A stretch of 64,000 bases of DNA from Marivibrio halodurans (GTDB taxonomy: Bacteria > Pseudomonadota > Alphaproteobacteria > UBA8366 > Aestuariispiraceae): NCBI RefSeq assembly GCF_017963645.1, contig NZ_JAGMWN010000001.1, positions 744,001-808,000 on the forward strand. The letters run 5' to 3'. A model generated the notes under the pieces. The model ran no database searches. It worked only from the letters and a program-made list of their open reading frames with translations, and was not told where the DNA came from. The stretch's first letter is position 1. Each line of letters starts with the position of its first letter. Positions 1-19,148 of this stretch are shown here, one piece after another. The position numbers and the translations under genes were made by a program.

Positions 1-859
1 ACAGCCCCCGGAACGGATGGGTCATTTGTCCCAGGAAGGAAGCCGGCATCGGTTCGTCGATCCCGATCCTGACCGATGGACGATAGCGCGCGTAATGGTG
101 GGTGCCGAACAACAGGTCGAAAATCATCAAATTCTCCCCGTAGTTCCTGTTCCCCTCCTTCAGATCGCGCGAGTGGTGGAAGCGGTGCAGTACCGGCGTG
201 TTGACGATGTAATTCAGAAAGCCGAAGCGCATCTCGACATTGCAATGGGTCAACATGCCGATGAAGGCGGTCGTGGCGCTGACCCATTTGAATATCTCGA
301 TCGGCGCACCGGCAAGGAACAGGATCGGCTGACTCAGCAGGATGCTGGTGACGGTATCGACCAAATGGAACCGCCCGGTATTGATGAAGGTCAGACGCGG
401 CGCGCTATGATGAACCGCATGGAAGCGCCAAAGGAACCGCCATTCATGCGCGAGGCGATGCGCCGCGTAGAGACCGGCCTCCACGAGTACCAGGGCCAGC
501 AGGACTTGCGCCGGCAGCCACCATTCCCCGGGCCAGACACCGTGAAGTTCCGTGCCACGCGCCACCTCCGCCACGCCGAAGACGGCGCCCACCGCGACCA
601 GCACCTGAACCGCGCTCTTGTTAAGCACCGTATGGGCGAGATCGACCCCGATCTGGCCGTCGTTCTCCAGCCAGGCGCGCTCATAGGGCCAGCGCCGCTC
701 GGCCAGGAAGAGGCATGCCGCGAGACCGAGATAGGCCAGATTGAACGCCAGGAAGGAATACCCATGGGCGATCCCGGTCCAAGTTATCGTCAAGGCCGCG
801 CAAAGCAGAAGGGGCCAAAGCAGATAAAGCCGGGCAAAACGAACGAGAGAGCGAATCAT
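1..859 (-). CDS. Sterol desaturase / fatty acid hydroxylase family protein (3' end cut off by window)
   Basis: The reverse strand is open from an ATG at 859 to the window edge, so the C-terminus is missing. The protein starts MIRSLVRFARLYLLWPLLL and has several hydrophobic segments. It carries the three His clusters of the membrane di-iron hydroxylase family: HRLAHE, then HAVHH, then HRFHH followed by THHYARY. This family hydroxylates or desaturates sterols, hopanoids or fatty acids in the membrane; the substrate cannot be read from sequence. It lies downstream of hpnN on the same strand, which makes a lipid-modification role plausible but unproven. Confidence 0.85.
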   Translation of the reverse strand, partial: MIRSLVRFARLYLLWPLLLCAALTITWTGIAHGYSFLAFNLAYLGLAACLFLAERRWPYERAWLENDGQIGVDLAHTVLNKSAVQVLVAVGAVFGVAEVARGTELHGVWPGEWWLPAQVLLALVLVEAGLYAAHRLAHEWRFLWRFHAVHHSAPRLTFINTGRFHLVDTVTSILLSQPILFLAGAPIEIFKWVSATTAFIGMLTHCNVEMRFGFLNYIVNTPVLHRFHHSRDLKEGNRNYGENLMIFDLLFGTHHYARYRPSVRIGIDEPMPASFLGQMTHPFRGL

Positions 860-11093: not shown

Positions 11094-12131
11094 TCATTTC
11101 GCGATATCGCGGATGCCAACCTTGAAGACCTTCATCATGATCAGGATGAAGCCCAGGCAGACGAGCACGAGCGAGAAGCTGTAGGCGGCGCCGCTGTTCC
11201 AGTTCTGGCTTTCGAAGAATTGGCGATAGATCAATTGGCTGAACCAATCGCCGGATTTGCCCCGTGTCATGATCTGCGGCACCGAATAGGACCCGACGGA
11301 CAACATGAAGGTCATGATGCACCCCACCGCGATGCCGGGCTTGGCATGCGGAATGACGACGCGCAGATGCGTGCGGATGACGCCCGCGCCCAGATCCTCG
11401 CTCGCCTCCAACTGATTGCGGTCCAACGTCTCGACCGTGTTGTAGATCGGGAAGATCATGAAGAGGACATAGGCGTAGATCAGCGCCACGAAGACGGAGC
11501 CGGAATATTCCAGGAAGGGAACCCAGCTCTTATCCTCGAACGAGACCAACCCCAGCCAAGCCAGCAGGCTGTTGATAACCCCCTGATAGTCCAGGATCAT
11601 CAGCCAGGCATAGACGCGCAGCAACTCGTTGATCGCATAGGGCACGATCAGCCCCAGCATCAGCAACGCCGCCTTGTTCGGCGTCGACAGCTTGGCGATC
11701 GTGAAGGCGATCGGATAGCACACGATCAAAGCCAGAATCGTGACCGCCAGCGAATAGCCGATGCTCTTCAGGAATATCTCGAAATGCAGGGCCGACATCT
11801 TGGTGTAATTGTCGAAGCCGTAATGCTTCGGCGGCGCGGTCTCCTCCGCCTCCATAGCGGCGATGTCGGCCTTAAGTCCGTCGATCCGTTCCTGGATATC
11901 CGCCTTTCCCTCCGGCGTGTCAGCCTGCCCGAGATCGAATTCCAGGAGCCCCATGTCGGAATAGGCCCGGTCGATCCTCATGCCCAGTTGGTCGTCGCGA
12001 TCGATCCACCAGAGCGAATGCTCGATCATGAAGGCCTGCGGCAGCAGGATCATGATCAACATCCAGAAGGCCGTCAGCGTGATGAAGACACCCGTCAGCG
12101 TGCGGCCGTAGCTGCGCAGAAGTTCATGCAT
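11094..12131 (-). CDS. Polyamine-type ABC transporter permease (PotB/PotH-like) with periplasmic insert
   Basis: A 345-residue permease, longer than the usual 280-300. TM1 spans about residues 13-36. The EAA loop is LEASEDLGAGVIRTHLRVVIP near the C-terminal third. Between TM1 and TM2, residues about 43-103 form a polar, charged, helix-prone insertion (with IQERIDGLKADIAAMEAE) that ordinary PotB proteins lack or have shorter. The ATG at 12131 lies inside the end of the ATPase gene (8-nt overlap), indicating coupled translation. Confidence 0.85.
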   Translation of the reverse strand: MHELLRSYGRTLTGVFITLTAFWMLIMILLPQAFMIEHSLWWIDRDDQLGMRIDRAYSDMGLLEFDLGQADTPEGKADIQERIDGLKADIAAMEAEETAPPKHYGFDNYTKMSALHFEIFLKSIGYSLAVTILALIVCYPIAFTIAKLSTPNKAALLMLGLIVPYAINELLRVYAWLMILDYQGVINSLLAWLGLVSFEDKSWVPFLEYSGSVFVALIYAYVLFMIFPIYNTVETLDRNQLEASEDLGAGVIRTHLRVVIPHAKPGIAVGCIMTFMLSVGSYSVPQIMTRGKSGDWFSQLIYRQFFESQNWNSGAAYSFSLVLVCLGFILIMMKVFKVGIRDIAK

Positions 12132-13218
12132 CGTCCGCCTCGGCCTCGATCTCGCCGGCGCGCATGACGACCGCGTCGGCGGCGTTGAAACCAACCTTCA
12201 CCGCGCCTTCGAGCCCGCCATGGCCGCCCCGGTTCGCCTCATGCACGATGAAGCTGTCCGCACCGGCCTTGAAGAACAGATTGACGAAGGACCCTTCGAG
12301 GTCGCGACGCTCGAACCGCGCGTCGAAGACGTTGTCGGGGGCCACGCCATTGACGCGCGCGCTGCGCTCCGGCCGCACGAAAAGCATCGCGCGCTCCCCG
12401 ACCGACAGGCGGTCCTGATCGCGCCCGCGCAGCATGCCGTGCGGCGTCTCGACCGTGGCGAAGCCATCGCCCGTTGCCGTGACCCGCCCCTCGATCACAT
12501 TGTTCTCGCCGACGAAGGTGGCCACGAACGGGGTGCGGGGATTGTCGTAGATGGTATCGACGTCGCCGACCTGCTCGACCACGCCGGCCTTCATCACGGC
12601 GATCCGGTCGGACATGGTCAGCGCCTCGCCCTGATCGTGGGTGATGAAGATGAAGGTAACGCCGGTCTTGCGTTGGATGTCCTTCAGTTCGGCCCGCATG
12701 TACTGGCGCAGCTTGAGGTCGAGCGCGGAGAGCGGCTCGTCCAGCAGCAGGACCGCCGGTTCGACGGCGAGCGCGCGGGCGATCGCCACGCGCTGCTTCT
12801 GGCCGCCGGACAGTTCGTTCGGGGATTTCTCCTCATGCCCTTGCAGCCCGACCAGGGCGAGCAGGTCGAAGGCCCGATCGCGCCGCGTCTTCCGGTCGAC
12901 GCCGCGCGCCTCCAGCCCGAAGGCGACATTCTCCCAATTGGTCATCAGCGGGAACAACGCCAGATTCTGGAAGATCAGTGCCGTCGGCCGCCGCGCCGGG
13001 CCCAGGGCGCCCATGTCCTGGTCGCCGATCAGCACCTTGCCCTCGCTCGGCCGGATGAAGCCGGAGACCATGCGCAGGATCGTCGTCTTGCCGCATCCCG
13101 ACGGCCCCAGAATGGAAAAGAACTCGCCCGCATTGATCGTGAGCGTCGTACGCTCTACCGCCGTGAACCCGCCGAAGCGCATCACGACATCCTGAAGCCG
13201 CACGTCCTTGCCGCGCAT
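12124..13218 (-). CDS. Polyamine-type ABC transporter ATP-binding protein (PotA/PotG-like)
   Basis: A 364-residue ABC ATPase with Walker A GPSGCGKT, Q-loop FQNLALFP, signature LSGGQKQR, Walker B LLLDEPLSALD and switch His in ITHDQGEAL. A C-terminal TOBE-type regulatory domain follows from about residue 240 (FVGENNVIEGRV). The layout matches PotA/FbpC-type importers. It sits between the binding protein and the first permease and energises the importer. Confidence 0.9.
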   Translation of the reverse strand: MRGKDVRLQDVVMRFGGFTAVERTTLTINAGEFFSILGPSGCGKTTILRMVSGFIRPSEGKVLIGDQDMGALGPARRPTALIFQNLALFPLMTNWENVAFGLEARGVDRKTRRDRAFDLLALVGLQGHEEKSPNELSGGQKQRVAIARALAVEPAVLLLDEPLSALDLKLRQYMRAELKDIQRKTGVTFIFITHDQGEALTMSDRIAVMKAGVVEQVGDVDTIYDNPRTPFVATFVGENNVIEGRVTATGDGFATVETPHGMLRGRDQDRLSVGERAMLFVRPERSARVNGVAPDNVFDARFERRDLEGSFVNLFFKAGADSFIVHEANRGGHGGLEGAVKVGFNAADAVVMRAGEIEAEADDA

Positions 13219-13306
13219 GGCCCGCCCCCTTTTTCGAACCCAGACGTCGCGATCGGCGTGAGCGGACGGGGAATTGCCCCGTCCGCCCCACCGTCACCCT
13301 CGCCGA

Positions 13307-14422
13307 TCAGGCGTTGGTGATCTTCTCGACATATTCCTGGCGGAGTTGCGCGAAATAGGGCGTATCCGCCTGCCACCACCACAGATTCGCGAGGTTCTCC
13401 TCATTGTAGACCTCGTCGAACTGCTGCTTGTATTCGGTGCCGGCATGGTCGGCGGCGCCCTTCACGGCCGAGTTATAGCCGGTATTCTTGGAGAACATGC
13501 CGGCCATCCGGGGCTCGAGCATCGCGTTGATGAAGGCATAGGCCTGATCGATATTCTCCGCGCCCGCGGTGACACCCATCGAGTCCATCCAGGTGATGCC
13601 GCCTTCCTTGGGCATGCGGTATTTCCACTTCGCATTCTCGCGATTGAGCAGAAGACCGGTCGTGTCCCAGGTCTGGCCGATCGTCGCGCCGGCGTCGGTG
13701 AAGGCGGCGGTCGCCTCGGTCGCGTTGTTCCAGAAGGCCGCGATATTGTCCTTGCGCTCGATGATGAAGGCCGCGCAAGCATCCCACACGCGGCGCGCCT
13801 CGTCCTCGGACTTATAGATGTCGAGGGCGCGGTTCGACGGCACCTCGCCGGTCGCGTCGAGATAGAGCGCCACGCCCATGATGACCGACTTCTGACGGAA
13901 GGCGGCGGAACCCGAGGCCTCCGGCGCCCAGAGCGAGCCGAAGGAGACCGCCTCCGCGTCCATCGGCATGGCCTCGCTGTCATAGGTGATGGCTTCCGTG
14001 CCCCAGTCGAACGGCAGCAGATAGCGCTTGCCGCGATAGGTCGCGCCGAGATTGATCGAGTCGCGGACCATGGAGGGGATCAGGCGGTCCATCGCCACCT
14101 TGCTCTCGTCAAGCGGGGCGATCAGGTCGTACTGATAGTAGTTCGGCCCGTTGGTGATCGAGGGGAAGATAACGTCGAATCCCTTGCCGCCCGCGGCGCG
14201 CAGCTTGTTCTCCGCCTCGTCGTTGGAGCCGTAGGTCGACAGATTGACCGTGATGCCGGTATCGCCCTCGAACTTCTTGATCATGTTCTCTTGGATATAA
14301 TCGCCCCAGGCATAGACATTGACCTGCCCGCTCGAGGCGAGCGCGTCATGGGCCTTCAGGATGACGGGCGCGACGGCGGCGGCGGCCACACCCTTCAGCA
14401 TGGATCGACGGGAAAAGCGCAT
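13307..14422 (-). CDS. Polyamine-type extracellular solute-binding protein (PotD/PotF-like), Tat signal
   Basis: A 371-residue binding protein. The N-terminus MRFSRRSMLKG is a twin-arginine signal followed by an Ala-rich hydrophobic stretch ending near DALASS, so export is by Tat. The mature part opens with VNVYAWGDYIQENMIKKFE, the standard PotD/PotF first strand and helix. As first gene of the minus-strand transporter operon it sets substrate specificity; polyamine is the best guess and I did not verify ligand residues. Confidence 0.85.
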   Translation of the reverse strand: MRFSRRSMLKGVAAAAVAPVILKAHDALASSGQVNVYAWGDYIQENMIKKFEGDTGITVNLSTYGSNDEAENKLRAAGGKGFDVIFPSITNGPNYYQYDLIAPLDESKVAMDRLIPSMVRDSINLGATYRGKRYLLPFDWGTEAITYDSEAMPMDAEAVSFGSLWAPEASGSAAFRQKSVIMGVALYLDATGEVPSNRALDIYKSEDEARRVWDACAAFIIERKDNIAAFWNNATEATAAFTDAGATIGQTWDTTGLLLNRENAKWKYRMPKEGGITWMDSMGVTAGAENIDQAYAFINAMLEPRMAGMFSKNTGYNSAVKGAADHAGTEYKQQFDEVYNEENLANLWWWQADTPYFAQLRQEYVEKITNA

Positions 14423-14667
14423 GGTCTCGAAACCCCTTGGTTGGCCGATCGGTTGGCACGATCGGTTGGCATGATGGGCCACGGCGGTTCCACCGGGTCG
14501 CATCGCACGGAGCGACCCGGCCGCATATCGCCGCGACCGGCAGGCCTATGCTGATAGGGAGAAAGCGAGACCGAACCGTTGCCGGCCGGTGAATATTTGA
14601 TGGCCGTGACATTGCACCGGCATGACGTCGCCGCCGTGATGGTCACCCCCTGAAGAGGCATCGCGGC

Positions 14668-15201
14668 TCAGCGCGCGGACATCTCCCGGCAGCGCGCCTC
14701 GACCTCTTCCCGGGCGGCATCCTCGAGGTCCGAGGCGAGACGGGTTTCGAGCATGCCCAAAACATCGGCCTTGAAGCCGAGACCTTGCAGAAAATCGACG
14801 AGACTGGTGGCGATCCGCCCGCCAAGCTCGCTCACCCGCGCGTCGACCGACGTGACACGGCACCGGGCGAGATCGGCCGTCAGATCGATCGCGACACGGC
14901 CGCCGAGGTCGCCGCTCATCGAGGCGTCCGGCCCCGCCTCGCAATAGAGCGTCGCATCGATCGCGGCCGAAAGCGCATCGTTTTCCATGTTGAGCGCGAC
15001 ATCATGCACCGTCAGGCTCTTGAAGCGGTCGACGGCGATCGTCACCAACTTGAAATCGTCGATCCGAAGGGCGGAACACGGCTCGGCCTGTCGGATCGCG
15101 TTTTCCACCATGGCGTTCGCCCGCGCCTCGCCCGGCACCGTCAGGACCGCGACGAGGAGAAGAGCGACAAGGCGGAACCCGGTGAAGACATGATAACGCA
15201 T
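14668..15201 (-). CDS. Secreted hypothetical protein
   Basis: A 177-residue protein starting MRYHVFTGFRLVALLLVAVL, a clear signal peptide with likely cleavage after ARA near residue 28. The mature part has three or four Cys residues (in EPCSAL, LYCEAG, ARCRVT and EARCREM) that could form disulfides. I do not recognise the family. It lies downstream of mobA on the same strand, 50 nt away, but its link to molybdenum metabolism is only positional. Confidence 0.6.
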   Translation of the reverse strand: MRYHVFTGFRLVALLLVAVLTVPGEARANAMVENAIRQAEPCSALRIDDFKLVTIAVDRFKSLTVHDVALNMENDALSAAIDATLYCEAGPDASMSGDLGGRVAIDLTADLARCRVTSVDARVSELGGRIATSLVDFLQGLGFKADVLGMLETRLASDLEDAAREEVEARCREMSAR

Positions 15202-15251
15202 GGATGATCGGTCCCTGGCTGGGGATCTCGACGGCCGATACGGCCGGCCGC

Positions 15252-15950
15252 CTATCTGCTGCGGCGTAGAAGGCGCTCCGCCGCCTCGATGTCGCCGGGG
15301 GCATTGGCGTTGAAGAAGGGGTCGACAGGCTCCGCCGCGAACTCGACCTGGATCAACTTGAAACGGCGGGTCCAGCGGTCGACCTTCCGGATATCCTCCT
15401 CCAGCATGGTCTGGCGCAGATCGTCGGCCAGCCGCACGGGCCAGAGGCCGACCACCGGATGCGCCCGGCCGTCGGAGGCGGCGCAGGCCATGTCCGCCTC
15501 CGCGCGCTCGACCGCCTGCATCAATCGCGGCACCAGATTGCGCGGCAGGAACGGTGCATCGCCCGGGAAGGTCGCGAGCCATTCGGCCCCGCGATGGTGG
15601 CGCCGCGCCCACTCCAACCCCGCCAACACGCCGGCCAGCGGGCCAGGCTGCCCATCCATCGTATCGGCCAGGACATCCATGCCGGTGACCTCGAAACGCT
15701 CCGGGTCGCCATTGGCATTGAGGGCAAGCTCGTCGACCTGGGGCCGGACGCGTTCGATGATATGATCCAGGATGGGACGGCCGCCCAGGAGGCGCAGGGA
15801 TTTGTCCCCACCGCCCATGCGCGACGACAAGCCGCCCGCGAGCACGATGCCCACGACGCCCGTGGAGACCGGCGCCGTCTTGGTTACATCCAAGTTCTCG
15901 TTAACACTCAATGGCGTGCCTTGCTTCGTTTCTGGGTCCCTCACCATCAT
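15252..15950 (-). CDS. mobA: Molybdenum cofactor guanylyltransferase MobA
   Basis: A 232-residue nucleotidyltransferase. The GTP-binding loop LAGGLSSRMGGGDKSL is the MobA signature. ADTMDGQPGPLAGVLAGLEWA and FPGDAPFLP (metal-binding Asp) follow in the right order. MobA attaches GMP to Mo-molybdopterin to make the bis-MGD cofactor. The start at 15950 overlaps the stop of the diguanylate cyclase gene; a GGGAG site lies upstream. moaA is encoded divergently about 1.3 kb away, forming a small molybdopterin neighbourhood. Confidence 0.9.
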   Translation of the reverse strand: MMVRDPETKQGTPLSVNENLDVTKTAPVSTGVVGIVLAGGLSSRMGGGDKSLRLLGGRPILDHIIERVRPQVDELALNANGDPERFEVTGMDVLADTMDGQPGPLAGVLAGLEWARRHHRGAEWLATFPGDAPFLPRNLVPRLMQAVERAEADMACAASDGRAHPVVGLWPVRLADDLRQTMLEEDIRKVDRWTRRFKLIQVEFAAEPVDPFFNANAPGDIEAAERLLRRSR

Positions 15951-16990
15951 CTCATGCTTCTCCCGCCTTCCTTCGAGAATTCTGGCGACAGGTCGGACGA
16001 CAAACCCGGTCTCCAACAGGTTATCCTGTTCCGTCCCGTATCCTTCGATCGGTATAGCGCTTCGTCCGCACGCTCAATCACGGTCTTCAACGGTGCCGCG
16101 CGATCCGCCACGGCGAGGCCGAAGGAGGCCCGAACCTCGATCGCCCCTCCCTTGTCCAAGCCGATTGGGCGTTCCTCCAGGGCGCGCCGCAAACGCTCCA
16201 GCACATCCCGTGCCGTTTCCTCGCCGGCATTGGGCAGACAAACGAGAAACTCCTCGCCGCCATAGCGATAGATAGTGTCCGTCGGCCGCAAACGCGAGAC
16301 GAAGCGACCCGCGACGGCCCTCAAGACCTCATCCCCGACACCATGACCGTGGGCATCATTGATCGCCTTGAAATGATCGATGTCGCAGAGCCCGATCGCG
16401 AGCCCCTTGCCGCCATGCCCCGTGTCGGTACCCCGGCGGTACGCTGTCTCGACTTCCGCCATCATCCCGGCGCGCGTACTGAGGCCGGTCAGCGGGTCGA
16501 GGGTCGAAACCGCCTTTCCGAAGGCATCGCGCAACCGGCGCGCGCGCCCCCGGAACGCATCCGCGCGGGCGACCAGCTCGTCATATTCGCCGACAGGAAC
16601 CGGACGGTCGGCGCGCGCGCGTTCCGCCAGGAGGCGCGCCAGTTCATGAAGGCTTCGATAGCTTTTCCAAAGTTCACTGACCGCCGATTGGCGCAACAGC
16701 GGGTCATCCGCATGCGCCAGATACCACATGCCGAAACGGCTGTAGAGAACCCGGTCCTCGTCCAGTAAATCCGGTTCCGGCTCGATACGGCAGACAAGCG
16801 CGCGATGCCATCGATTCAACCATCGCGCATGCTCGTCCAGCGCATCGTCGACCGCCGCAAGGACATCATTCGCGTCGAGATCCTCCGGCCGCGACTGATC
16901 GGCGGGCTGACAGCCCTGTTCGCGCTTATTCATCACCAAACGCTCGCTTCGCCGGACGCTCGTATCGCCGGAGTCCAACCCTTGCGCCAT
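15947..16990 (-). CDS. Diguanylate cyclase with degenerate CZB-like N-terminal domain (DgcZ-like)
   Basis: A 347-residue protein. Residues about 160-330 are a GGDEF domain with active site GGEEF (244-248) and an intact inhibitory RxxD site, RPTD (235-238). Residues about 44-125 align by eye with the zinc-sensing CZB domain of E. coli DgcZ (DEHARWL, SRFGMWY, SLHELARLL). Two of four zinc ligands appear changed: the Cys position is S84 and one His is Y111, while H54 and H115 remain. It should make c-di-GMP; the sensing role is uncertain. It overlaps mobA by 4 nt. An alternative start is the Met at 16933. Confidence 0.85.
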   Translation of the reverse strand: MAQGLDSGDTSVRRSERLVMNKREQGCQPADQSRPEDLDANDVLAAVDDALDEHARWLNRWHRALVCRIEPEPDLLDEDRVLYSRFGMWYLAHADDPLLRQSAVSELWKSYRSLHELARLLAERARADRPVPVGEYDELVARADAFRGRARRLRDAFGKAVSTLDPLTGLSTRAGMMAEVETAYRRGTDTGHGGKGLAIGLCDIDHFKAINDAHGHGVGDEVLRAVAGRFVSRLRPTDTIYRYGGEEFLVCLPNAGEETARDVLERLRRALEERPIGLDKGGAIEVRASFGLAVADRAAPLKTVIERADEALYRSKDTGRNRITCWRPGLSSDLSPEFSKEGGRSMR

Positions 16991-17313
16991 GCATACCCCT
17001 AAAATCGGGACAAACCCCCAGCAAGTGGGGCGACTTGGCCCTTATAGCCCATGCACGCGCCCTTACACGCCCCGAAAGTACTATGGATACTCCTCTCGAA
17101 GTGGGCAAGTCGTCGCCATGCCATGCATGGACCGGGGGTGTTGGTGCGTGCATCAAGAGCCTATATAGTCACGTGTTAGCCATCGGCAAATCGCGGCACG
17201 CGGCCGATGGGCCATGCCCGACGGCAACGCGAAAGCACGGTGAACCGTCGGTGCATGACGAGTGAACGCGGGCAACACGCGTGAACGATCACGGGATAGT
17301 GGGAAACGCATTC
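16991..17313. other. Intergenic region between divergent diguanylate cyclase and moaA
   Basis: About 320 nt with no supported gene; it should hold promoters for both directions. It contains several inverted repeats: CATCGGC...GCCGATG around 17180-17210, and a perfect 7-bp stem CCGACGG...CCGTCGG around 17218-17252 just upstream of moaA. I checked for a molybdenum-cofactor riboswitch and could not match its conserved elements. Confidence 0.5.
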
Positions 17314-18384
17314 ATGCATGGGTCGAAGGAACAGGAAGTCACGGCCGTCTTGGACGATGCCGCGCGAATCGCGAGCGACCAGCAGGCGCCGATGATCGAC
17401 CCGTTCGGCCGGGCGATCAGCTATCTGCGCGTCTCGGTCACGGATCGCTGCGATTTCCGATGCGTCTATTGCATGTCGGAGGACATGACCTTCCTGCCGA
17501 AGAAGGACGTACTGTCGCTGGAGGAGCTGGACCGCGCCTGCTCCGCCTTCGTGCGCCTGGGCGTGCGAAAGCTCCGCCTCACGGGCGGGGAACCGCTGGT
17601 TCGCCGCAATATCATGTGGCTGATCGAACGGCTGGGCCGTCATCTGGATAGCGGCGCGCTGGAGGAATTGACCCTAACCACGAACGGCAGCCAGCTCGCC
17701 CGCTACGCGGAGGACCTCTATCGCTGCGGCGTTCGACGGGTGAACGTTTCGCTGGACACCCTCGATCCCGGGAAATTCCTGGAGATCACGCGCTGGGGCA
17801 AGTACGACAAGGTGATGGAGGGGCTGGAGGCCGCGAAGCGCGCGGGCCTGCAGGTCAAGATCAACTGTGTCGCGCTGAAGGGCGTCAATGACGACGAGAT
17901 TCACCGCATCGTCGAATGGTGCGGCGAAGAGGGGTTCGACCTGACCTTCATCGAGGTCATGCCGATGGGCGATATCGGCAATGAGGAGCGGCTGGATCAG
18001 TACTGGCCGCTGACCATGGTGCGGGCGGAGCTTGCCCGGCGCTGGACCCTGACGGACAGCGACTACGTCACCGGCGGGCCGGCGCGTTACGTCCACGTCG
18101 CGGAGACGGGGCGGAAGATCGGCTTCATCACGCCGCTCACCCATAATTTCTGCGAAAGCTGCAATCGCGTGCGCTTCACCTGCACGGGCATGCTCTATAT
18201 GTGCCTCGGCCAGGACGACTCCGCCGATCTCCGCCCCGCGCTGCGCGAGCGCGAGGATGACGGCGCCCTGGAAGACTCGATCCGCGAGGCCATCGGCCGC
18301 AAGCCCAAAGGGCATGATTTCGTTATCGACCGGCGCCGGGGCGCCAAATCGGTCGCCCGGCATATGAGCGTCACCGGCGGATAG
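17314..18384 (+). CDS. moaA: GTP 3',8-cyclase MoaA
   Basis: Radical-SAM enzyme of molybdopterin synthesis; it converts GTP to 3',8-cyclo-GTP. The N-terminal [4Fe-4S] motif is CDFRCVYC, followed by [13 protein letters not shown] (SAM-binding GGEP). The C-terminal cluster motif [11 protein letters not shown] and a later Cys bind the second cluster, which holds GTP. Start choice is open: GTG 17281, ATG 17314 or ATG 17392 ([15 protein letters not shown], where family similarity begins). The C-terminus lacks the usual terminal Gly-Gly context only in being Thr-Gly-Gly, so the functional GG tail is kept. Confidence 0.9.
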
Positions 18385-18503
18385 CGCCCTCCTCGGACGG
18401 GTGGCCGCCTCCCCTCCTTCCCCGTCGCGCCGCAAGGCGATTGCCCGGTCGGCGTGGCGGGCGTACCGTCGCCCCGACGTCAATCGACGGAGCCCGAGAT
18501 TCC

Positions 18504-19148
18504 ATGCAGACGATCCGCAGCGAGGAGGAACTCGCCGCCCTTTACGACGCGCCGGGACGCGCGTCCCTGGTCAAGGAAGCCGTTAGGCTGACGCCGGAAT
18601 ATCGCGCGCTGCTCGCGGCGTCCCCCTTCTTCGCGCTGGCGACCGTCGGGCCGGAGGGCCTCGATTGCTCTCCGCGCGGCGACCGGGGTGCCGCCATCCA
18701 TATCGAGGATGACGAAACCCTGATGCTGCCCGACCGGCGCGGCAATAATCGTATCGATTCCCTGCGAAATATCGTCCGCGACCCGCGCGTGGCGCTGCTG
18801 TTCCTGATTCCCGGTTCAGGCACGACGGTCCGGGTCAACGGGCATGCCTCGATCACGACCGATGCCGCGCTGCTTGAGCGTTTCGCGGTCGAGGGCAAGA
18901 AGCCGCGCAGCGTCCTCGTGATCGGCATCGACCGGGTCTATTTTCAATGCGCGCGCGCCGTGCTGCGCGCCGGTTTGTGGGACGAGGCCGCACGGGTCGA
19001 TCCCGCCGACATCCCGACCCCCGGGAAACTGTTGCAGGCGATGACCGAGAAGCCGCAGATGCCCCGGAACGATTCCGGCGAGGCCCCCATCGACGGCGCC
19101 GCCTATGACGCCGACTGGTCGGGGCGAGCCAAGAAAAGCCTATGGTAG
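18504..19148 (+). CDS. PPOX-type FMN-binding flavoprotein (MSMEG_1061-like)
   Basis: A 214-residue split-barrel flavoprotein. The core FFALATVGPEGLDCSPRGD, the LMLPDRRGNNRIDSLRNI stretch and VALLFLIPGSGTTVRVNG are typical of the pyridoxamine-phosphate-oxidase-like family, particularly the subgroup described as MSMEG_1061-like. These bind FMN or a related flavin and reduce unknown substrates. The ATG at 18504 starts MQTIRSEEEL; upstream in-frame residues are low-complexity and excluded. It ends 14 nt before panE. Confidence 0.8.
   Translation: MQTIRSEEELAALYDAPGRASLVKEAVRLTPEYRALLAASPFFALATVGPEGLDCSPRGDRGAAIHIEDDETLMLPDRRGNNRIDSLRNIVRDPRVALLFLIPGSGTTVRVNGHASITTDAALLERFAVEGKKPRSVLVIGIDRVYFQCARAVLRAGLWDEAARVDPADIPTPGKLLQAMTEKPQMPRNDSGEAPIDGAAYDADWSGRAKKSLW

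Follow-up and report, generated by a model that had tools for sequence, protein, structure and literature searches.

Within a 64,000-nucleotide stretch of the Marivibrio halodurans genome (the window), a gene for a DgcZ-like diguanylate cyclase is placed directly ahead of mobA, and two of the four zinc ligands of DgcZ are replaced in its product. This raises the question of what became of zinc control in this protein, and what a predicted producer of c-di-GMP does among genes for molybdenum cofactor assembly. The features on which the answer rests are listed in Table 1.

Table 1. Coordinates in the window of the cyclase gene, its domains, motifs and key residues, and the neighbouring genes.
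Feature	Position	Strand	Evidence or remark
CZB-like/GGDEF diguanylate cyclase gene	15947..16990	-	347 aa; Pfam, DgcZ alignment, model
CZB-fold N-domain, ~aa 38-160	16511..16879	-	AlphaFold2 model of aa 31-159, pLDDT 93.7 (predicted); top structural match 3t9o
His54 (DgcZ H22 ligand, kept)	16829..16831	-	two alignments
His62 (in 22/23 ligand-poor rows, 5/12 full-site rows)	16805..16807	-	clade alignment
Cys67 (in 23/23 ligand-poor clade rows)	16790..16792	-	clade alignment
Ser84 (DgcZ C52 ligand, lost)	16739..16741	-	two alignments
Tyr111 (DgcZ H79 ligand, lost)	16658..16660	-	two alignments
His115 (DgcZ H83 ligand, kept)	16646..16648	-	two alignments
GGDEF catalytic domain, ~aa 163-324	16019..16504	-	Pfam PF00990, E 2e-38
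RPTD inhibitory (I-)site motif, aa 235-238	16277..16288	-	sequence, clade alignment
GGEEF active-site motif, aa 244-248	16247..16261	-	sequence, clade alignment
mobA, molybdenum cofactor guanylyltransferase	15252..15950	-	TIGR02665, 208.6 bits vs. cut-off 151.85; ATG at 15950 overlaps cyclase stop by 4 nt
moaA, divergent neighbour	17281..18384	+	TIGR02666, 363.2 bits vs. cut-off 284.05

The cyclase open reading frame begins with an ATG, although residues 1-28 mostly have pLDDT values below 50 in the AlphaFold2 model and translation may instead begin further on, at Met20 (16933). E. coli DgcZ (PDB 4h54) can be aligned to residues 41-323, and the NCBIfam equivalog NF007380, which we take to be the model for DgcZ (its own title is diguanylate cyclase), gives 261.9 bits versus a cut-off of 256. 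The model of the whole protein (mean pLDDT 88.4) retrieves DgcZ 4h54 as its top Foldseek match (TMt 0.77), and the C-terminal GGDEF domain with its catalytic motif was confirmed. Because the homology to DgcZ extends over the full length and the N-domain recurs in 30 of the 43 genomes of the order (E <= 1e-6), this kinship is not a chance result. The descriptions of the protein as DgcZ-like and of its GGEEF and RPTD motifs as intact, both from an initial sequence-only reading, therefore hold.

The assignment of the N-domain to the CZB family required more care. The Pfam CZB model (PF13682) matches residues 54-119 with 19.4 bits, below its gathering score of 29.4, and the N-domain by itself likewise stays below it with 21.6 bits. 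In the predicted model, however, the N-terminus has the CZB fold: the DgcZ CZB crystal structure 3t9o_B ranks first (Z 15.3, rmsd 2.1, 118 residues aligned), and the first unrelated structure follows at Z 11.2, about 4 Z units lower, with the caveat that helical bundles without kinship can reach Z values of about 14 by shape. Foldseek gives a TMt of 0.83 against 3t9o with an E value of only 0.025. Because helical bundles score high by shape, and because of this E value, the CZB assignment rests on sequence homology to DgcZ. The superposition on DgcZ proposed earlier places residues 9..129 of the N-domain model on 7..126 of 3t9o, which, judged by these end points only, is compatible with the ligand register.

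In this register, two MAFFT alignments put the four DgcZ ligands H22, C52, H79 and H83 into the same columns of the window protein, bearing out the earlier claim that Ser84 and Tyr111 replace two ligands and that His54 and His115 remain. Its quartet thus reads HSYH instead of the 3His/1Cys combination HCHH, and the CX(L/F)GXW(Y/L) motif reads SRFGMWY, with only the Cys missing. The window protein has the architecture of DgcZ, yet it falls outside the zinc-binding CZB family by quartet, motif and Pfam score.

We then looked at how widespread this deviation is. Among the 59 genomes around that of the window, 31 have an N-domain match at E values up to 0.01, and the carriers include Pacificispira spongiicola (G010) and Hwanghaeella grinnelliae (G003), both Aestuariispiraceae of the Rhodospirillales. 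The initial scan comprised 80 loci, of which 40 were used in the domain alignment, the rest matching mainly in the GGDEF part; a MobA match was present in only two of the 80 (L046 and L047), both of which repeat genomes G010 and G003. Before the tree was calculated, EcDgcZ, L046 and L047 were removed as duplicates and L055, L061, L063, L071 and L075 as poor domain matches; because the latter five are all non-HCHH (HARQ, QLLV, QVLV, HARQ and H-HA, respectively), the tree understates the non-HCHH rows. Of its 87 proteins, 35 form one clade (support 98/90), all of them from an fdhD/mobA-type locus.

The 35 rows of this clade, which contain near-copies (e.g., L136/L137 and L130/L132) and do not equal independent events, divide into 12 with HCHH and 23 without. 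Three ligands are left in two of the ligand-poor rows, two in eight (including the window), one in twelve and none in one. The Cys is gone from all 23 (replaced by T in 11, S in 8, G in 2, A in 1 and E in 1), and the His residues are retained in 8, 10 and 16 rows at positions 54, 111 and 115, respectively. The replacements follow no pattern (e.g., HTYM, QTYH, NSHH, MENF), and the four ligand columns rank 105, 68, 60 and 51 of 121 in conservation (1 being the most conserved), near or beyond the median. W61, C67, G87, W89, Q101 and R152 are invariant in the same 23 rows, none of which lacks GGEEF or RxxD. Over the whole tree, well supported branches require at least six ligand changes, and change counts (8 changes, 6 of them so required) cannot separate loss from gain; we infer loss because HCHH is found in DgcZ and in 37 of the 57 rows outside the clade.

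The loss of the Cys by itself is no proof of zinc loss. According to the available parts of two CZB studies, C52 mutants of DgcZ retain zinc (PMC8262984, PMC13370339), the C52D variant binds it more tightly than the wild type (PMC8262984), and CZB proteins with a changed Cys are said to have a roughly tenfold lower, yet still femtomolar affinity (PMC13370339). A loss of zinc control becomes likely only where the Cys and at least one His are both missing, as in 21 of the 23 ligand-poor rows including the window, and zinc binding may persist in the two HGHH rows. Since the window protein keeps two His residues, His115 and His111 are still present in 16 and 10 of the 23 rows, and the C52 mutants bind zinc, weak binding is conceivable in the window protein as well. 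Zinc might then still inhibit the cyclase from a weaker site made of His54, His115 and water or other side chains. The mutant affinities favour such a site, but they concern the exchange of one ligand, whereas the window protein has lost two and no more than one is left in 13 of the 23 ligand-poor rows, and we regard it as quite improbable.

We also searched the ligand-poor rows for a replacement metal site, in the form of columns with Cys or His in 8 or more of the 23. Besides the old ligands, these were columns 62, 67 (Cys in 11/12 full-site rows) and 93 (11/23 versus 8/12), and only column 62 was enriched. The substitutions at the old ligand positions show no consistent pattern in the 23 clade proteins, so that the ligand loss looks like decay, not like the gain of another metal site. 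The sequence-only reading had left two options, zinc control lost or a different ligand sensed; the alignment supports a lost or changed control and narrows the choice in favour of decay. The domain itself remains conserved after the loss of its ligands, with Cys67 in every ligand-poor row, a pattern more in keeping with a role that persists than with decay alone.

The main rival interpretation of the N-domain starts from this point and assumes a repurposed sensor, in which Cys67, possibly with His62, would act from helix 1 as a thiol redox switch or as part of a metal site across the dimer. The distribution of both residues in the ligand-poor rows agrees with it, and helix 1 makes up a large share of the DgcZ CZB dimer interface in the accessible part of PMC8262984. 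Neither residue is a clear replacement, however: Cys67 occurs in 15 and His62 in 17 of the 57 other rows, and helix spacing would place Cys67 far from the old site. Since 11 of the 12 full-site rows have Cys67 as well, this residue was retained and not gained anew. We therefore hold repurposing to be unlikely, and prefer a domain that has lost its zinc site and retained its fold.

Ligand changes are not confined to the clade of the window. HSQH or HTQH occurs in four tree rows from metagenome-assembled genomes (L067, L070, L072 and L076, one of them Tepidiphilus and one Betaproteobacteria) that group apart from it, as well as in L260, the one locus of the 19 numbered L242-L260 that reads HSQH, the other 18 having HCHH. 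The group neighbouring the window clade shows VTHH/VTHY, TSHY and VSHL, and another group HKHH/HAHH/HNHH. In the fetched stretches of the 11-row neighbouring group (up to about 6 kb on each side), mobA, moaA and fdhD found no match; the only matches were to ABC-ATPases, at 26-30% in three rows. Matches were found in at least 35 of 385 genomes across the class (E <= 1e-6) and at least 21 of 398 across the phylum (E <= 1e-15), both counts being lower bounds with the best ten candidates per genome scored. Three loci of one genus from another class (L261, L262 and L263) have the full HCHH and were considered as cases of the same operon; they were rejected, since mobA is encoded there on the complementary strand, at a distance of 1.2-1.6 kb and behind another gene. 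Two more loci of this genus are too near contig ends to judge mobA.

The second part of the question concerns the neighbouring genes. The cyclase gene ends in AGC ATG AGA TGA, whose last four letters are shared with the mobA start at 15950, in agreement with the 4-nt overlap reported before; this start is immediately followed by another ATG, at 15947, which would reduce the overlap to 1 nt, and later starts are possible too. With the ATGA start, the N-terminus of MobA is longer than in most relatives, and its nucleotide-binding motif begins 104 nt past the cyclase stop, versus 16-52 nt in most loci where the two genes are direct neighbours. In 27 of the 32 clade loci whose spacing was measured (all but L136, L154 and L155), mobA could start 60 nt or less from the cyclase stop, and 11 of these 27, the window included, show the ATGA overlap. 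On the other side, the real start of moaA is, by our own reading, probably the ATG at 17392 (MIDPFGR...). A search for Moco riboswitches and other RNA elements in 14500-18600 returned only two matches, both far below their gathering scores, and a scan of 14600-17400 with a sigma-70 pattern found no promoter, which carries little weight with only 0.4 expected by chance. After mobA, the reverse strand holds a small open reading frame (14668-15207) with a start resembling a signal peptide by our own reading; a longer frame, 14668-15612, has no Pfam match. Further downstream follows an ABC transporter set (11094-14503, reverse strand) with a solute-binding protein (Pfam SBP_bac_8), which we read as polyamine-type.

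Across the clade, mobA is present in the locus of 33 of the 35 members, and the contig or stretch ends too early in the other two (L136 and L155). In 32 of the 35, fdhD lies upstream on the same strand, the exceptions being the window, the stretch fetched around L143, and L151, where its place falls beyond the contig end; moaA occupies the opposite strand in 19. Genes for transporters of apparent molybdate type (Mod) are found beside L140, L142 and L149, and of apparent tungstate type (Tup) beside L214, L216, L217, L218 and L225, both names being assigned by us to ABC-transporter matches. The five tungstate-type stretches are those of L189, L191, L192, L193 and L200, which belong to two families outside the order. 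Since these outside-order loci keep HCHH, the arrangement of the locus is most likely older than the loss of the zinc site. With the order fdhD-cyclase-mobA present in four families of the order (f1-f4) and two families of the class outside it, the pairing of cyclase and mobA is not the oddity it had appeared to be from the single gene pair.

Among the presumed FdhD proteins of these operons, the L128 copy scores 256.5 bits with PF02634 (cut-off 27.2), and the L137 copy 139.2 bits with TIGR00129, slightly below the cut-off of 140.9. Both copies (L128:4083-5012 and L137:6102-6971) carry a single Cys in the sequence SGCAQG, as opposed to GCGLCG in the paralogue of the window genome, and their sequences possibly represent a divergent type of FdhD. 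No FdhD of the operon type was found in the window genome, where the sole PF02634 match is this 28% paralogue on another contig. It adjoins a formate-dehydrogenase-like subunit with TIGR01591 as its best NCBIfam match (449 versus a cut-off of 666 bits). The stretch in question (L231, G000:C20:88000-106000) contains this alpha subunit next to the FdhD paralogue and, by our own reading, a small iron-sulphur subunit and a helix-turn-helix regulator.

The cyclase is absent from 13 genomes of the order. An operon-type FdhD (E <= 1e-20) is encoded in three of these, each time with mobA adjoining at gaps of about 17-40 nt, and the RYGG(D/E)EF motif is absent from these fdhD-mobA stretches. Because fdhD adjoins mobA there without it, the cyclase appears to be dispensable in these three genomes. 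It might accordingly be a passenger, carried along in the operon but functionally unrelated to molybdenum or tungsten; the window, which has the cyclase and mobA without an operon fdhD, is the complementary case. We nevertheless doubt this interpretation, as the arrangement has been preserved over a long divergence, through f1-f4 and two families outside the order.

Family f4 (L148 and L151-L155) presents the reverse case of the window, with HCHH in all six CZB proteins and GG(D/E)EF in none. Its loci hold extra degenerate GGDEF-like segments in the vicinity of the CZB gene, either between fdhD and mobA or next to them, and the four extra genes checked all score above the Pfam GGDEF cut-off. 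Counting the CZB-bearing ones, the six loci contain 23 GGDEF-like segments, none of which has GG(D/E)EF and 22 of which have RxxD, the exception being a 41-residue stretch at a contig end. Relatives of one of the extra genes (E <= 1e-15) occur in seven of the 43 genomes of the order, i.e., the six f4 genomes and G017, where the match is the genome's own cyclase. These sequences suggest proteins that bind c-di-GMP without synthesizing it.

The persistence of the f4 gene in the locus after the loss of its GGDEF motif in six of six cases, together with the further degenerate segments, could also mean that the protein serves MobA and FdhD as a partner with a GGDEF fold, any cyclase activity being incidental. 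A purely structural use would not need GGEEF and RxxD, yet both are kept in all 29 clade rows outside f4, and the RxxD of the f4 segments points to c-di-GMP binding instead. This makes a structural partner very improbable, slightly more so than residual zinc inhibition.

The reading that we consider the most probable is that the window gene codes for an active, product-inhibited cyclase that is no longer gated by zinc and is made together with MobA. A cyclase of DgcZ architecture would thereby have remained enzymatically competent and product-inhibited, retaining the CZB fold without the zinc quartet, and would most likely be deaf to zinc. Expression would then be the main determinant of its output, via translational coupling to mobA. 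The locus, mostly fdhD-cyclase-mobA and often facing moaA and molybdate or tungstate transport genes, would make and deliver the bis-MGD cofactor of formate dehydrogenase, and c-di-GMP would rise while the cell builds this machinery. The available part of PMC13197769 describes MobA followed by FdhD in cofactor maturation of W-formate dehydrogenase, and mutual two-hybrid signals between MobA and FdhD of Methylorubrum. Against our reading stand the missing operon FdhD in the window genome and around L143, and the three fdhD-mobA genomes without a cyclase.

In a wider and considerably more speculative view, which we offer tentatively, the assembly of the Mo/W formate dehydrogenase cofactor would have c-di-GMP as an integral output and, in one lineage, also as an input. 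A zinc-sensing cyclase would have joined an fdhD-mobA operon once; the branch of the window would then have lost the zinc input and kept catalysis, whereas f4 would have given up catalysis but not the zinc ligands, and acquired degenerate RxxD-containing GGDEF genes reading c-di-GMP in the same locus.

A natural clade without the zinc site is a counter-example to the universal CZB Cys and provides ready controls for the role of the CZB fold without zinc. In the available parts of the CZB literature, the Cys is called universally conserved (PMC8262984, PMC13370339) and zinc-mediated redox sensing is proposed as the conserved, ancestral function (PMC13370339); we met no description of ligand-poor CZB cyclases there. 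This may follow from the survey in PMC8262984, which, in the part available, made the 3His/1Cys core a condition of its automated step and reviewed other sequences by hand. The conserved locus, in turn, hints at a concrete, testable link between c-di-GMP and Mo/W formate dehydrogenase assembly. Among the matches listed, judged by title and opening of the abstract, no open-licence article makes this link, and a review of c-di-GMP stimuli (PMC8846402) contains no word starting with molybd- or formate.

The steps of W/Mo formate dehydrogenase maturation in M. extorquens (MobA, FdhD) are matched by the neighbouring genes mobA, fdhD, mod or tup type and moaA, and a diguanylate cyclase was not met in the accessible part of the corresponding study (PMC13197769), where one mention of a cyclase concerns two-hybrid assays based on adenylate cyclase. 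A cyclase gene near molybdoenzyme genes is not wholly unprecedented, since E. coli ycdT lies near ycdY, a gene of the NarJ-type molybdoenzyme-chaperone family, as described in the available part of PMC4464133; the YcdT protein is described there as membrane-anchored, and no fdhD-mobA locus was met in that part.

With the CZB-type zinc and HOCl sensors TlpD, McpA and DgcZ, the window protein has the four-helix bundle fold and the FGxW motif in common, but it is without the Cys described as universally conserved and without the full 3His/1Cys core. Compared to E. coli DgcZ (YdeH), it shares the CZB and GGDEF domains over the full length, the GGEEF motif and the Trp three residues past the first ligand (W57), at about 28% identity and without two of the four zinc ligands; the gene adjoins mobA, whereas E. 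coli dgcZ is flanked by mgtT/mgrR and ydeI. Degenerate GGDEF proteins of the PopA type bind c-di-GMP through RxxD. The f4 copies likewise have RxxD without GGDEF, and the window protein instead has an intact GGEEF.
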